DNA from: Bryobacterales bacterium
GTDB lineage: Bacteria; Acidobacteriota; Terriglobia; Bryobacterales; Bryobacteraceae
Reading direction: 5' to 3'
Assembly (NCBI GenBank): GCA_027324255.1
Contig: DAHVTI010000272.1
Span: forward strand, 1 to 38,384
DNA: 38,384 bases
The position numbers and the translations under genes are program-made. This document shows, in pieces, positions 4,897 through 10,061 of the stretch. Position 1 is the first letter of the stretch; every line of letters starts with the position of its first letter. The notes beneath the pieces are model-generated. The model was not told where the DNA came from. It saw only the letters and a program-made list of their open reading frames with translations, and searched no databases.

Positions 4897-4915
4897 TGGA
4901 CGCCGGGCGCGTCCA
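4897..4915. promoter_or_regulatory. Inverted repeat in divergent region (operator candidate)
   Basis: TGGACGCCGGGCGCGTCCA has 7-bp perfect arms around a 5-nt centre. It sits where the -35 regions of both the leftward oxidoreductase promoter and the rightward tRNA-Gln promoter would fall. Confidence 0.35.
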
Positions 4916-4932
4916 CCGCCCATGGGATTTGC

Positions 4933-4938
4933 TACAAT
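4933..4938 (+). promoter_or_regulatory. Possible -10 of tRNA-Gln
   Basis: TACAAT in an AT-rich patch, 14 nt before the first base of the tRNA. The -35 is not convincing. Confidence 0.45.
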
Positions 4939-4952
4939 AAAACAGGCCTCAC

Positions 4953-5026
4953 TGGGAGGTCGTCTAATGGTAAGACTGCAGACTCTGGATCTGCGTATCG
5001 GGGTTCGAGTCCCTGCCTCCCAGCCA
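4953..5026 (+). tRNA. tRNA-Gln (CTG)
   Basis: It is a complete cloverleaf. The acceptor TGGGAGG pairs with CCTCCCA, then discriminator G and an encoded CCA. The anticodon stem GCAGA/TCTGC carries loop CTCTGGA, giving anticodon CTG that reads CAG. The T arm is CGGGG-TTCGAGT-CCCTG. The T1-A72 pair and G73 are typical of tRNA-Gln. Confidence 0.95.
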
Positions 5027-5061
5027 CGCCAACTCCTTTCCCGCCCAAGTCTTTCTCTCTC

Positions 5062-5925
5062 ATGCTGAACCCCAGAATTCCTGCATTTCTGACGATCCTG
5101 GCATTGGCCTGCGGGTGCGCCCGCGCCCAAAGCGCCGCGGAGGCATTCCAGAAGGCGCCGGCCGGCGTGGAGGACGCGCTCCGCGAGCGCGTGACCGCGT
5201 TCTTCGCGCTGCACAAAGAAGGCAAGTTCCGGCAGGCCGAGGCGATGGTCTGCGAGGACAGCAAGGACACCTACTACGATGCGGACAAGCGCCGCTGGAC
5301 GAGCGTAGAGATTATCAGGGTCACGTTCGAGAAGGACTACCAGGAGGCGAAGGTGCTGGTGGCGCTGGGCACGGAGATGAGCCAGCGCGGCACGCGGGTC
5401 CCTGCGATTTTCCCGTTCAACTCCATCTGGAAGGTGCAGGGCGGACAGTGGTGCCATTACCTTCCGCCGCCGAACAAAGGAGAGACCGTCACGCCGTTCG
5501 GAATGATGAAGCAGACGGAAGGCGCCGCCGGCCAGACGTCCATTCCGCCCATGCCGGCTTCTGCGCAGGCGGCGGCGGCCCAGATCCTCAGCTCCATCCG
5601 CTTTTCCAAGCGGGAGTTGAAGGTGAAGGGCTACGAGCCGTCGAGCGACGAAATCGAGATTTTCAACGGACTGCCAGGTACGCTTCAACTGGCGGTGTAC
5701 GGTGCGGGCCGCCCCGGGCTGAACTGGCACCTGACTTCGGGGGTCCTGAAGACCGGCGAGCGCTCCATGCTCAAACTCACCTACACTCCGCCGGACAAGT
5801 CCCCCAAGTCCGGGATGGAGATCAAACTGGTGCTGGAACCGCTGGGCGTGGAGGTGCCGATCTCCATCGTCTTTGATATTCCGGAGAGCGTGAAGCAGCA
5901 ACTGCCGCCGGCGATCCGTCCGTAG
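5062..5925 (+). CDS. Exported two-domain protein of unknown function
   Basis: I do not recognise a named family for this 287-residue protein. Residues 1-23 look like a Sec signal peptide (PAFLTILALACGCARA); the Cys residues do not form a clean lipobox. An N-terminal alpha+beta region (residues about 30-130, RVTAFFALHKEGKFRQAEAMV, then W and Y-rich strands) resembles NTF2/SnoaL-like folds. The C-terminal 110 residues (SSIRFSKRELKVKG... to DIPESVKQQLPP) look like a beta-sandwich of the DUF1573/ASH type; both fold calls are inference. No ribosome-binding site precedes ATG 5062, and the gene starts only 35 nt after tRNA-Gln with no separate promoter visible, so it may be transcribed by readthrough from the tRNA. 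Confidence 0.75.
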   Translation: MLNPRIPAFLTILALACGCARAQSAAEAFQKAPAGVEDALRERVTAFFALHKEGKFRQAEAMVCEDSKDTYYDADKRRWTSVEIIRVTFEKDYQEAKVLVALGTEMSQRGTRVPAIFPFNSIWKVQGGQWCHYLPPPNKGETVTPFGMMKQTEGAAGQTSIPPMPASAQAAAAQILSSIRFSKRELKVKGYEPSSDEIEIFNGLPGTLQLAVYGAGRPGLNWHLTSGVLKTGERSMLKLTYTPPDKSPKSGMEIKLVLEPLGVEVPISIVFDIPESVKQQLPPAIRP

Positions 5926-5931
5926 TCCGGA

Positions 5932-5947
5932 TTGGCATGCGGCTTGC
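5932..5947 (+). promoter_or_regulatory. Sigma-54 (-24/-12) promoter candidate
   Basis: TTGGCATGCGGCTTGC matches the RpoN consensus TGGCACG-N4-TTGC with one mismatch (T for C) and keeps the invariant GG and GC dinucleotides exactly 10 nt apart. The predicted start is near 5958, immediately before the AAGGAG ribosome site at 5961-5966. Confidence 0.55.
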
Positions 5948-5969
5948 GAATAGGTTTTGCAAGGAGCCT

Positions 5970-6623
5970 ATGCAAGTCAGAACCACCGACCAATCGCTTG
6001 GGGGCCTGCTGGGCCAACTCGGACCGCGGCGGGCAGGCGCCACGCAATCGGGGCGGCAAGCCTCGGATTTTGAAGCATATGTAGGGAGAGAGGCGAGCAG
6101 ACGGACAACTTCCGCGGGAAGCGGGCGCTCCGTCATCTCCGGCGGGCAGCCGGCGTCGAGTTCCAATTCGGGAACAAGTGTTCCGACCAGCGGTACATCT
6201 TCCACCGCCAGGGATGCCGGCACCGCCCCGGCGAGAGCGGCGGCGGAGACCGCCCAGCCTGTAACCGAGGCCACAACCACCGCGCTGAGCGAAGCCCCAT
6301 CTCCGTTCGCGCCCTCCGGCCTGAACGAACCGTCGCCGGCGGCGCCCTGGCCTGTAACGATCGTGACTCCCTCAACGCTGCCGGATCTGGCCCACGAATC
6401 GAAAGCGGCTCTGGCCGACGCCATGGTGAAGGCCGGGCTGGACCCGTCGCAATACCGCGTTTCTTACTGGGAGGAGTTGGTGTGGTATCCGGCGGGGAAC
6501 TTCATCAACAAGTTCCTGACAGTTCAGGGGCCGGACGGACAGAAGACCGACTTCGACGCAAGCTGGACGCTGAAGACGCCCTGGGTGACGGCCACAACCC
6601 TCAAGGACCAGGTGGTGGTGTAG
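5970..6623 (+). CDS. Ser/Thr/Ala/Pro-rich protein with conserved-looking C-terminus, unknown
   Basis: I do not recognise this 217-residue protein. Residues about 15-125 are low-complexity and rich in Ser, Thr, Ala, Pro and Gly, like a disordered linker. The last 85 residues are globular-looking (ESKAALADAMVKAGLDPSQY, then SYWEELVWYPAGNFINKFL, then DASWTLKTPWVT) with several aromatic residues. There is no signal peptide or membrane helix, so it is probably cytoplasmic or exported by a dedicated route. ATG 5970 is chosen because AAGGAG lies 3 nt upstream; a longer reading from 5937 would start inside the promoter. A sigma-54-like promoter lies directly ahead, suggesting regulation by an enhancer-binding protein that is not encoded in this window. 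Confidence 0.7.
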   Translation: MQVRTTDQSLGGLLGQLGPRRAGATQSGRQASDFEAYVGREASRRTTSAGSGRSVISGGQPASSSNSGTSVPTSGTSSTARDAGTAPARAAAETAQPVTEATTTALSEAPSPFAPSGLNEPSPAAPWPVTIVTPSTLPDLAHESKAALADAMVKAGLDPSQYRVSYWEELVWYPAGNFINKFLTVQGPDGQKTDFDASWTLKTPWVTATTLKDQVVV

Positions 6624-6626
6624 GAC

Positions 6627-6670
6627 GCCTGGCCAGGCACGCAGCCCTGGGGCGGCGGGAGCCGCCCCGG
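6627..6670. terminator. Two GC hairpins between convergent genes
   Basis: GCCTGGCCAGGC (6627-6638) is a perfect palindrome. GGGGCGGC-GGGA-GCCGCCCC (6649-6668, extendable to 6647-6670 through a T-G pair) is an 8-10 bp stem with a GNRA tetraloop. They lie between the stops of the 5970 gene and the TonB-dependent receptor. No T-run follows on either strand; a bidirectional U-less terminator is possible. Confidence 0.5.
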
Positions 6671-6698
6671 ATGAAATTCGTCGGCCCAGGGACGGCCG

Positions 6699-9600
6699 CT
6701 AGAAATTGATGCGGCCCGAGAGCTGCAAGCTGCGATTGTCGCCGACCGTGGAGGTAATGCGCCCTACGGTGGGTGAACCGATGCTGGCGTTGGGGAAGCC
6801 GAAGTAAGGGGTATTGAATAGGTTGAAGGCTTCGAATCGGAAATTGAAGCCCACCTTTTCGGTAATGCGGAAGGTCTTGACGACGCTCATGTCGATGTTG
6901 ACGACGCCGGGCGAGTAAAGCACGCCACGGGCGACGTTGCCATAATTATTGGGCGCGGGCGCCTTGAAGGCGCTGGCGTCGAACCAGTAGTACGGATCCG
7001 GATTGTCGAGGCGGCCGTCGCCGATGCGGTCGGGCCAGGAAGGGGCGCCATTGTTGACGCCGTTCTGGAGACCGACATTGAAGGGCCGGCCGGTGGTGGC
7101 CGTCACGATGCCGCCTAGCTGCCAGCCGCCGGCGAAGGCATCGAAGATCGCGTTTTCGATCCCCACCTTGCGGCCCTTGCCGAAGGGCAGGTCGTAGAGG
7201 CCGTTGATGACGGCGCGATGCTTGACGTCGAACCCGGACGCGCCGCGGCCGCAGCGAATGCAGGTGACGGTCTGGGGGCCGCCGGAGGAGCCGCCGCCGG
7301 AGGCGACGGAACCGCCGTAATCCAGACTCTTGCCATAGGTGTATACGCCGAGTATCTGGAAGCCGCTGGCGAAGCGCCGGTCCAGCTTCAAGGTCATGCC
7401 GTGGTAGGTGCTGGAGTTCATTGGCTCGAAGATGGTGATGCTGCCGATGTTGCGGAGCGCCTGATAGGGCCGGCGGTCCTCGATGGTGCCGGTCCCCAAC
7501 CGTACTTCGTTGTGGTTGTATCCATACAGCAAGTTCACGCCGCGGCTGCCCACATAGCCCAACTCCGCCATCAGGCTCTGGCCGAGTTGGCGCTGCACGG
7601 TCAGGCTCCAGGTCTGGGCGTACTGAGTCTGGTTGTCGAAGGAGTAACCGCGGACGGTGGGCCGGCGCGTGTTGATTTCCGCCGTGGTCATGGGCTTCAG
7701 GGGCACGAGCGTGCCGAAAGGCCGGTCGATGCGGGGAATGGCGGAATAGTCGGTGAGGAATTCGCCGTAGGAGTAGGACTCGCTGAAGAGCCAGGGCGGT
7801 CCCTGGGTGAGCATGCTGGAGGCAGAGACTGGCTCAGGGAAGTAGCTGAGTCCGTAGCCGCCGCGCACAATGGTCTTCTGATCGCCGAGGACGTCGTAGG
7901 CAAAACCGAAGCGGGGGGCGAAGTTGTTGTGGTCCGTGTTGCGGAGAGTCCGGGAGTAGCCGCCCTCGTTGGCGTAGGCGAACATGAGCTTCGTCAGGTC
8001 GAAGCTGGTCATGCGGTCGTACTTCTCCGTCTCGGGGGAGTAGATCTCATAGCGAACGCCGAGGTTGAGCGTGAGGCGCGAGGAGACTTTCCAGTCGTCC
8101 TGAAAGAACCAGGCGTTTTCCCAGATGCGGAGTCCGGGAACGTCGATCAGGAATCCGCGGCTGCCGTTCTGCACGAGGCCCAGCAGCATGGAAGCCCAAC
8201 CGGTGCCGCCGGTGCGGGTCACGGGATCGGAGACGAAGCCGCGGTTGAAGTTGAGCGCCCCGCGGGTGTCGGCATTGGTAAACGGCGAGGCATCCCGGCG
8301 GACAACGTGATACCCCAGCTTCAGGCTGTGCCTGGCCTTGGTCCAGTAGATGTTGTAGTCGATCTGATAGTTGACTTGGCGGGGACGAGCCGGCAGAAAA
8401 TTGGGGCCGCCGCTGAGGCCGGTGAAGTCGGCCACGTTGATGGAAGGGATACCCGTGGAGTTGTCGGTGAGGTTGATATTGCGAATGCCGAGCGAGTCCG
8501 CGGCGGGGATGCCATAGTCGGAGTGGACCGTGGAGGGGTTGGTGCGGGCCCAGCCGGTACGGAATTCTCCGACCAGGGCTGGGGTCCAGACGCGGCTCCA
8601 GTTGAAGGCGCCGCCGTGCGTGCGGAGACGGGTGTTCTGGATGCCGGCCACCCAGGGGCCGAGCTTGAACTTGGACGCCGCCTCAGCCGGGGTCGGCAGG
8701 CAGCAGTTGGCCTGGCCTTGCGGGGCGTCGAGGTCGAACCACTGTTGCTGGAGGCGGAAGAACATGGAATCCTTCTGCGACAGTTGGTAGTCGGCCCGGG
8801 CGGTGTACTGGTTGTCGTTGATCACACGGGTGGGCGCGGACTGATAGTTGTTGAAGTTGCCCGCGAGATTGGGCTTGGGGTAGACGCTGGCAACATTGAT
8901 GCCCACCTGGTTCATCAGGGATGTGGGGATGGTGTTGTTTTGGAAGGGATCGCGGATGAAACCGGACGGGTTGGCCGGATTGACGCGCGTGGAGTAAGGG
9001 TTCCACACCTGAATCAGGGCGCCGGTCGAGACGTTGCGAAATTCACTGAAGTTGCCGGCGCGGACCAGGTCGGTGGGCACGGTGTTGAGGTAATCGAGCC
9101 CGCGGACTTCGCGCTGGCCGGCGTAGTCGGCGAAGAAGAAGAGCTTGTTCTTGATGATGGGGCCGCTGACGGCGCCGCCCATCTGGTGGCGGCGGAAGGG
9201 GAGTTTCTTCGGCAGGGCCTGGGGACTTTGGAAGTACCCGCGCGCGTCGAACTGGATGTTGCGGTGGAACCAGAAGGCGGTGCCGTGGGGGTCGTTGGCG
9301 CCCGAGCGGGTGGAGACGGAAACGACGCCGGCGCCACGGCCGAATTCCGCTGAGAAGGACCCGGTGAGGACCTTGAACTCGCGGACCGATTCGAGCGAGG
9401 GCTGGACGATAACGGTGTTGAACGTATATTCGTTATTGTCGATGCCGTCGAGCAGCCAGCCGTTGGCGTTGGCGCGCTGCCCGAGAGGATTGTAGTTGGA
9501 GGCCGCGCGGGGGTTGAAGGTGGAGGCGCCCGAAAGGTTCTCGCCAGCCTGACCTGGAGTGACGCCCGGCGCGAGGTAGACCAACTGGGCGAAGTTGCGG

Positions 9601-10061
9601 CCGTTCAAAGGCAGTTCCTGCACGGCGCGCTGCTCAATGACCTGGCCCGTCTCCGCCGTGGTGCTCTGCACCAGGGGAGCGGAGGCGGTGACTTCGACGG
9701 TCTCGCTGACGCTGCCGACCGACATGACGACGTCCACTCGAGCCTGGGCGTTGACAGCTACGACGATGTCTTTCTGTTCGGCCTTCTTGAACCCGATCTG
9801 TTCCACGGTGACGCGATACGAACCCGGAATGAGGAAGGGGAACTGGAAGGACCCGGTTTCATCAGTCTTCTTGGTGACCACCGTTCCCTGGTTCTGGTTG
9901 GTCACCGTGACGGTTGCCCCCGGCATGACTGCGCCCTGGGGATCAGTGACGGTTCCGAAAATGGTGCCCGTCGTGACCTGCGCTGAGGCGGCATACGCTG
10001 CCGCCAAGAGACAGCAGAGCAGCAACATCGCGGCTCTGCCGTTTCCATTGACTACTCTCAT
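6699..10061 (-). CDS. Oar-type TonB-dependent receptor with carboxypeptidase regulatory-like domain
   Basis: This 1120-residue outer-membrane protein has, in order: a signal peptide (about 1-27, MLLLCCLLAAAYAASAQ); a CarboxypepD_reg-like beta-sandwich (about 30-115, with GTVTDPQGAVMPGATVTVTN and the strand set ending TVEVTASAP); a TonB plug (QELPLNGRNFAQLVYLAPGV, then LLDGIDNNEYTF); and a long beta-barrel ending in a C-terminal Phe (LQLSGRINF). This is the Oar-like expansion typical of Acidobacteria, generally linked to uptake of large or complex substrates; the ligand is unknown. The start is supported by AGGAGG 4 nt before the ATG. It is transcribed away from a second, unrelated-looking receptor across a 113-nt intergenic region. 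Confidence 0.93.
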   Translation of the reverse strand: MRVVNGNGRAAMLLLCCLLAAAYAASAQVTTGTIFGTVTDPQGAVMPGATVTVTNQNQGTVVTKKTDETGSFQFPFLIPGSYRVTVEQIGFKKAEQKDIVVAVNAQARVDVVMSVGSVSETVEVTASAPLVQSTTAETGQVIEQRAVQELPLNGRNFAQLVYLAPGVTPGQAGENLSGASTFNPRAASNYNPLGQRANANGWLLDGIDNNEYTFNTVIVQPSLESVREFKVLTGSFSAEFGRGAGVVSVSTRSGANDPHGTAFWFHRNIQFDARGYFQSPQALPKKLPFRRHQMGGAVSGPIIKNKLFFFADYAGQREVRGLDYLNTVPTDLVRAGNFSEFRNVSTGALIQVWNPYSTRVNPANPSGFIRDPFQNNTIPTSLMNQVGINVASVYPKPNLAGNFNNYQSAPTRVINDNQYTARADYQLSQKDSMFFRLQQQWFDLDAPQGQANCCLPTPAEAASKFKLGPWVAGIQNTRLRTHGGAFNWSRVWTPALVGEFRTGWARTNPSTVHSDYGIPAADSLGIRNINLTDNSTGIPSINVADFTGLSGGPNFLPARPRQVNYQIDYNIYWTKARHSLKLGYHVVRRDASPFTNADTRGALNFNRGFVSDPVTRTGGTGWASMLLGLVQNGSRGFLIDVPGLRIWENAWFFQDDWKVSSRLTLNLGVRYEIYSPETEKYDRMTSFDLTKLMFAYANEGGYSRTLRNTDHNNFAPRFGFAYDVLGDQKTIVRGGYGLSYFPEPVSASSMLTQGPPWLFSESYSYGEFLTDYSAIPRIDRPFGTLVPLKPMTTAEINTRRPTVRGYSFDNQTQYAQTWSLTVQRQLGQSLMAELGYVGSRGVNLLYGYNHNEVRLGTGTIEDRRPYQALRNIGSITIFEPMNSSTYHGMTLKLDRRFASGFQILGVYTYGKSLDYGGSVASGGGSSGGPQTVTCIRCGRGASGFDVKHRAVINGLYDLPFGKGRKVGIENAIFDAFAGGWQLGGIVTATTGRPFNVGLQNGVNNGAPSWPDRIGDGRLDNPDPYYWFDASAFKAPAPNNYGNVARGVLYSPGVVNIDMSVVKTFRITEKVGFNFRFEAFNLFNTPYFGFPNASIGSPTVGRITSTVGDNRSLQLSGRINF

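Follow-up and report, generated by a model that had tools for sequence, protein, structure and literature searches.

A very probable sigma-54 promoter ahead of an uncharacterized, lineage-specific acidobacterial protein family

Does a single near-consensus sigma-54 (RpoN) motif mark a working promoter and, if so, what does its target do? The question is raised by a contig of 38,384 nucleotides from a Bryobacterales bacterium of the Bryobacteraceae (GCA_027324255.1, DAHVTI010000272.1), the whole of which is referred to here as the window. The kind of promoter is known; what is new is its target, named gene P here, together with the role that P may have. Comparison across relatives indicates that the motif is very probably a true sigma-54 promoter, placed ahead of an uncharacterized protein family specific to one lineage.

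The element and its surroundings

The element TTGGCATGCGGCTTGC lies at 5932–5947 on the plus strand. It has the exact GG-N10-GC spacing, in a TGGCAYG-N4-TTGC context, and a single mismatch to TGGCACGN4TTGC, as a sequence-only reading of this DNA had described. The sigma-54 promoters mapped in Salmonella have GG at −24 and TGC at −12, fixed spacing and the form TGGCAYG-N4-TTGC (PMC3844500). The element ahead of P shares all of these features and differs from the Salmonella promoters in being predicted from sequence. Taking C5947 as −12 and applying the usual −24/−12 geometry from the same source, we place the predicted transcription start at about 5959 on the plus strand. This is 2 bases 5′ of a ribosome-binding site, AAGGAG (5961–5966, plus strand), in agreement with the earlier placement of the start just ahead of that site, and 11 bases 5′ of the ATG at 5970. 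AAGGAG also precedes the start in loci L003 and L007.

Gene P (5970–6623, plus strand) encodes a protein of 217 residues with a Ser/Thr/Ala/Pro-rich N-terminus and a compact C-terminal domain (residues ~135–217), as judged from homologues, alignment, AlphaFold models and composition. The listed open reading frame starts at an ATG at 5937, within the promoter element, but the N-termini of homologues (MQV, MRI, MRV) align at 5970, which is thus the likelier start. Directly upstream is a conserved neighbour, gene U (5062–5925, plus strand), encoding 287 residues with a hydrophobic, signal-peptide-like N-terminus. A tRNA-Gln gene (4953–5026) ends 35 bases before U, which may therefore be read from a promoter common to both. 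Convergent with P, positions 6699–10061 encode a TonB-receptor-like outer-membrane β-barrel protein of 1120 residues, with a carboxypeptidase-regulatory domain and a plug.

Judged singly, without comparison, TTGGCATGCGGCTTGC does not stand out from chance. The window contains two sites that differ from the consensus at one position or none, where 1.05 are expected on average, and 29 of 100 shuffles reach two. The host genome holds 16 matches to TGGCMYGN4TTGC, a slightly looser pattern than the TGGCACGN4TTGC used for the window, and 12 to its reverse; across ten genomes, TGGCACGN4TTGC occurs 44 times and its reverse 30 times. Most pattern sites are thus chance occurrences. Definition of a regulon by scanning the genome for the motif, as the sequence-only reading had proposed, was dropped for this reason, and all 16 sites of the host genome and 28 of the 44 from the ten genomes were inspected for leads only. 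Upstream of a ferredoxin-like gene (MAYVITDTCTKD..CI.ACPVNCIHP) at L112 (genome G004) and L118 (G252), a perfect TGGCACGN4TTGC stands at a distance of 30 bases, and this gene is likely a further sigma-54 target common to two genera.

Because the lone site is at chance level, the importance of the element rests solely on its conservation upstream of homologues. The figures above would suit a chance match, with P transcribed from some other promoter, such as by read-through from U. The site lies 7 bases beyond the end of U, and the sole terminator-like match of the scan on the plus strand falls inside U. A simple sigma-70 scan of 4900–6750 was empty, which counts against another promoter but says little for this organism. 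The comparisons that follow weigh more heavily: the element is conserved in 31 homologues of P and depends on the presence of P, not of U. A chance match is consequently very unlikely.

The machinery for such a promoter is present. The host genome carries one copy of rpoN, as do all 29 of the 29 genomes with P that were surveyed for the gene, and it contains 20 matches to the enhancer-binding domain PF00158, 15 of them strong. No PF00158 domain was found on the contig of P, in keeping with the earlier remark that no enhancer-binding protein lies nearby.

Conservation of the element upstream of P

We sought the best GG-N10-GC site in an equal 380-base stretch upstream of the domain for 31 different P genes, drawn from 28 genomes in 11 genera. 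Sites with at most one mismatch were found in 8 of the 31 (shuffle mean 0.13, maximum 2, 300 rounds), with at most two in 20 (mean 1.08, maximum 6) and with at most three in 29 (mean 5.7, maximum 12). The motif is thus retained upstream of orthologues. With rpoN present as well, neither of the two refuting outcomes named in the sequence-only reading has come about, and the sigma-54 reading gains strong support. On the minus strand of the same stretches, 0 of 31 reached two mismatches or fewer, and when the spacer was altered by one or two bases just 1–2 of the 31 did so. Since the 31 genes are related, the shuffles overstate their independence; the argument is carried by the spread over 11 genera and by protein identity down to ~20%.

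Among the best sites, T precedes GG in 29 of 31, C follows GG in 28 and TTGC has its second T in 30; GG and GC were imposed in the search. The first in-frame start codon follows the site by 1–30 bases (median 21), the short extremes probably reflecting uncertain starts. The weakest cases are L010 and L013, with 4-mismatch sites at best, and L019, a paralogue in G002, which has TGGACTAAGCCGTGC at the promoter position, with GG-N10-GC kept and 5 mismatches, and was counted at 3 mismatches through a site away from that position. In four loci of genus g46 (L060, L061, L062 and L064), just 12–13 bases lie between the −12 GC and the first ATG in frame with P; unless translation begins further down, the transcript there could have almost no leader.

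In all, 37 loci were scanned for sites. L016, which lacks a domain match, and the second copies L045, L050, L053, L059 and L067 were left out of the shuffle comparison, second copies being judged by identical sites and distances or by the same contig place. L040–L044, L046–L049 and L068 represent the same genes as included loci and were not entered.

Gene U provides an internal control. U is present in 39 of 61 genomes, a wider distribution than that of P. Among 30 U loci inspected, P follows directly in 15. Of these 15, 13 have a site with three mismatches or fewer (that of G027 taken from the scan of 37 loci), against 1 of the 15 in which P does not follow (Fisher p ~2e-5, kinship of loci ignored). 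Thus, the motif goes with P and not with U. In G015 the P after U is very divergent and was recognized by a pooled profile; the same profile found no P in the 15 U loci counted as lacking it. The single site without P is at L183 (G010), where a sigma-54-like site with 3 mismatches comes after U and the next gene is not related to P.

We also looked for a shared activator site by counting dyads in 20 P and 12 flgB upstream stretches. None was convincing: the best dyad was common to 3 of the 20 P stretches against a null maximum of 2, in what is an insensitive test.

A near-consensus call that was worthless by its own statistics is in this way confirmed by family-wide conservation with a good internal control. 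We predict, with high confidence from these comparisons, that 5932–5947 is the functional sigma-54 promoter of P. RNA polymerase with RpoN would bind the −24/−12 element as a closed complex, and one of the enhancer-binding proteins from other parts of the genome would presumably open it. The transcript, from about 5959 and with a leader of ~11 bases, would then encode P.

The P protein family and its fold

The sequence-only reading had taken P for an orphan protein, which is incorrect: matches were found in 15 of 61 genomes, the host included. One of these, G014 (L016), gave no match to the P domain model. A profile of the C-terminal domain matched 20 of 299 genomes of the class, all in the taxonomic family of the window. 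The named contigs in which relatives occur are acidobacterial metagenome-assembled genomes, some labelled Candidatus Solibacter usitatus or Candidatus Sulfopaludibacter, the latter filed under Acidobacteriota, Terriglobia, Bryobacterales, Solibacteraceae. A phylum-wide search with a 17-sequence P set recovered the host genome and one weak match with an internal stop; as few family members were sampled and scoring was limited to 7 candidates for each listed genome, the result is a weak indication of restriction. On these searches P is a protein family so far found only in one acidobacterial family.

P had no match in Pfam or PHROGs, and its best NCBIfam match was insignificant (E 0.016, 14 bits against a cut-off of 900), as was its best match to the PDB by sequence (E 0.19). 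A strong hydrophobic stretch is absent from the first 60 residues in most of 17 P sequences (L012 and L014 have a moderate one), so that no ordinary signal peptide is evident in most P proteins. Ser, Thr and Pro make up 37% of residues 1–130. In the AlphaFold model, pLDDT is mostly below 50 over most of residues 1–120 and a confident domain begins at ~135. The earlier description of a Ser/Thr/Pro-rich protein with a disordered N-terminal two-thirds and a compact C-terminus is thus accurate, and models of nine P sequences share the low-confidence N-terminal part and the confident C-terminal domain.

Modelled alone, the C-terminal domain has a mean pLDDT of 86.8 and the order β-α-β-β-β-α-α. Foldseek returned no match at E ≤0.001 for the whole P model or for the domain. 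In a second structural comparison the top Z was about 5, and several chains of HPF/RaiA type, the ribosome hibernation factors, were among the best rows (5zep_x, Z 5.2, rmsd 3.2, 79 aligned; 8rd8_D, Z 4.8, rmsd 3.2, 81 aligned). These rows, together with a similar order of predicted elements (β-α-β-β-β-α in the P model), would suit a domain distantly related to HPF/RaiA, with P acting on ribosomes. However, unrelated folds (porphobilinogen deaminase, CapZ) rank level with these rows, the Foldseek E for the domain exceeds 0.2, and P has no family match to support the relationship. HPF is a basic protein, whereas the net charge of the P domain over 31 sequences runs from −12 to 1 (median −1) and is zero or negative in 30 of them, an argument against RNA binding. 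We regard this reading as very improbable.

The layout of P also recalls FliK, the flagellar hook-length control protein, in which a long flexible Ser/Thr/Ala/Pro-rich part is followed by a compact C-terminal part. P has a comparable arm and C-terminus but shows no profile similarity to the protein at the fliK position of G006, which is a separate gene (probability 0.2%, HMM score <0), and, with no Pfam match either, the identification of P as FliK was rejected.

Flagellar genes and the role of P

The sequence-only reading had suggested a regulon such as motility, stress or nitrogen control. Motility receives some support from the sites and neighbourhoods described below and is a candidate regulon for P; no sign of stress or nitrogen control was noticed. 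We searched the literature on sigma-54 or RpoN in acidobacteria, Solibacter and Bryobacteraceae and found no study of the lineage of P among the papers listed, so that the flgB sites and the one at fliK in a relative are useful as anchors. A paper on RpoN in Vibrio parahaemolyticus reportedly gives an example of sigma-54-dependent flagellar genes, flgB and others. In the lineage of P, flgB has the same type of promoter, at a comparable spacing from its start codon: sites with two mismatches or fewer start 27–46 bases before the start in 14 of 29 loci (of 30, the partial L163 being excluded), including the flgB of the host genome (L141, TGGCACGGCATCTGC), and weaker GG-N10-GC sites with 3–4 mismatches occur there in 10 more of the 29. 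The fliK-position gene of G006 (L102, 17404–19482), which has no Pfam match, carries TGGCGCGCAAAGTGC 15 bases before its ATG. Of 311 ORFs taken as background from the window and from further stretches, 12 had a site with at most two mismatches near the start, and these included six P genes, one flgB and one fliK-like ORF.

The neighbourhoods of P fall into two types. Type-1 P adjoins U, and no flagellar neighbour was recognized at type-1 loci. Type-2 paralogues in G005, G006 and G002 have neighbourhoods that differ from these, and paralogues L006 and L018 keep the site with 2 and 3 mismatches, respectively. In G006, type-2 P and motB converge, and the flagellar cluster to which motB belongs continues with motA, flhB, fliR, fliQ, fliP, fliO, flgE, flgD and fliK (motB, motA, flhB, fliP, flgE and flgD assigned by Pfam, the remainder by inspection). 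This neighbourhood is syntenic in G002. At the corresponding place in G005, one flank has the same genes as in G006 and the other has no flagellar genes. The motB neighbourhood thus represents one event in close relatives. Co-occurrence is uninformative, since Flg_bb_rod was matched in 27 of the 29 genomes that have P and in 28 of the 30 that lack it, and flagellar genes were dropped as a discriminator of P genomes; the two with P that lack the match, G017 and G031, have matches to Flagellin_N.

P differs from known sigma-54-dependent flagellar genes in having no recognized flagellar domain and in usually not lying beside flagellar genes. A real sigma-54 promoter could instead serve a non-flagellar role, such as an envelope or nutrient response together with the secreted-looking U, beside which type-1 P lies in 15 of 30 U loci. 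The host genome encodes about 15 enhancer-binding proteins, and near-perfect sites precede other non-flagellar genes, such as that for ferredoxin in G004 and G252. The promoters of flgB and, in G006, of fliK, along with the paralogue beside motB, argue the other way, and we consider a non-flagellar role an evenly balanced prospect.

Our best guess, a tentative one drawn from sequence comparisons, is that P belongs to the sigma-54 flagellar gene programme. P would then be an accessory protein confined to its lineage, made up of a flexible N-terminal arm and a small α/β domain, and its likeliest process would be flagellum assembly or control. That it founds a new group of family-specific, sigma-54-controlled flagellar accessory proteins with an undescribed small domain, perhaps acting as a new export substrate or regulating assembly or the motor, is a more speculative and rather doubtful extension. 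An unannotated acidobacterial protein family nevertheless gains a predicted regulator, RpoN, and a process that can be tested.

Two further observations concern flagella in these genomes. Outside the family, U is present in 6 of 24 genomes and flagellin in 5, with both in 4 (kinship ignored), a co-occurrence that is suggestive. At L104 (G005:C1:610000-629900), six or more consecutive flagellin genes form part of a flagellar cluster; the same genome has other flagellar loci.
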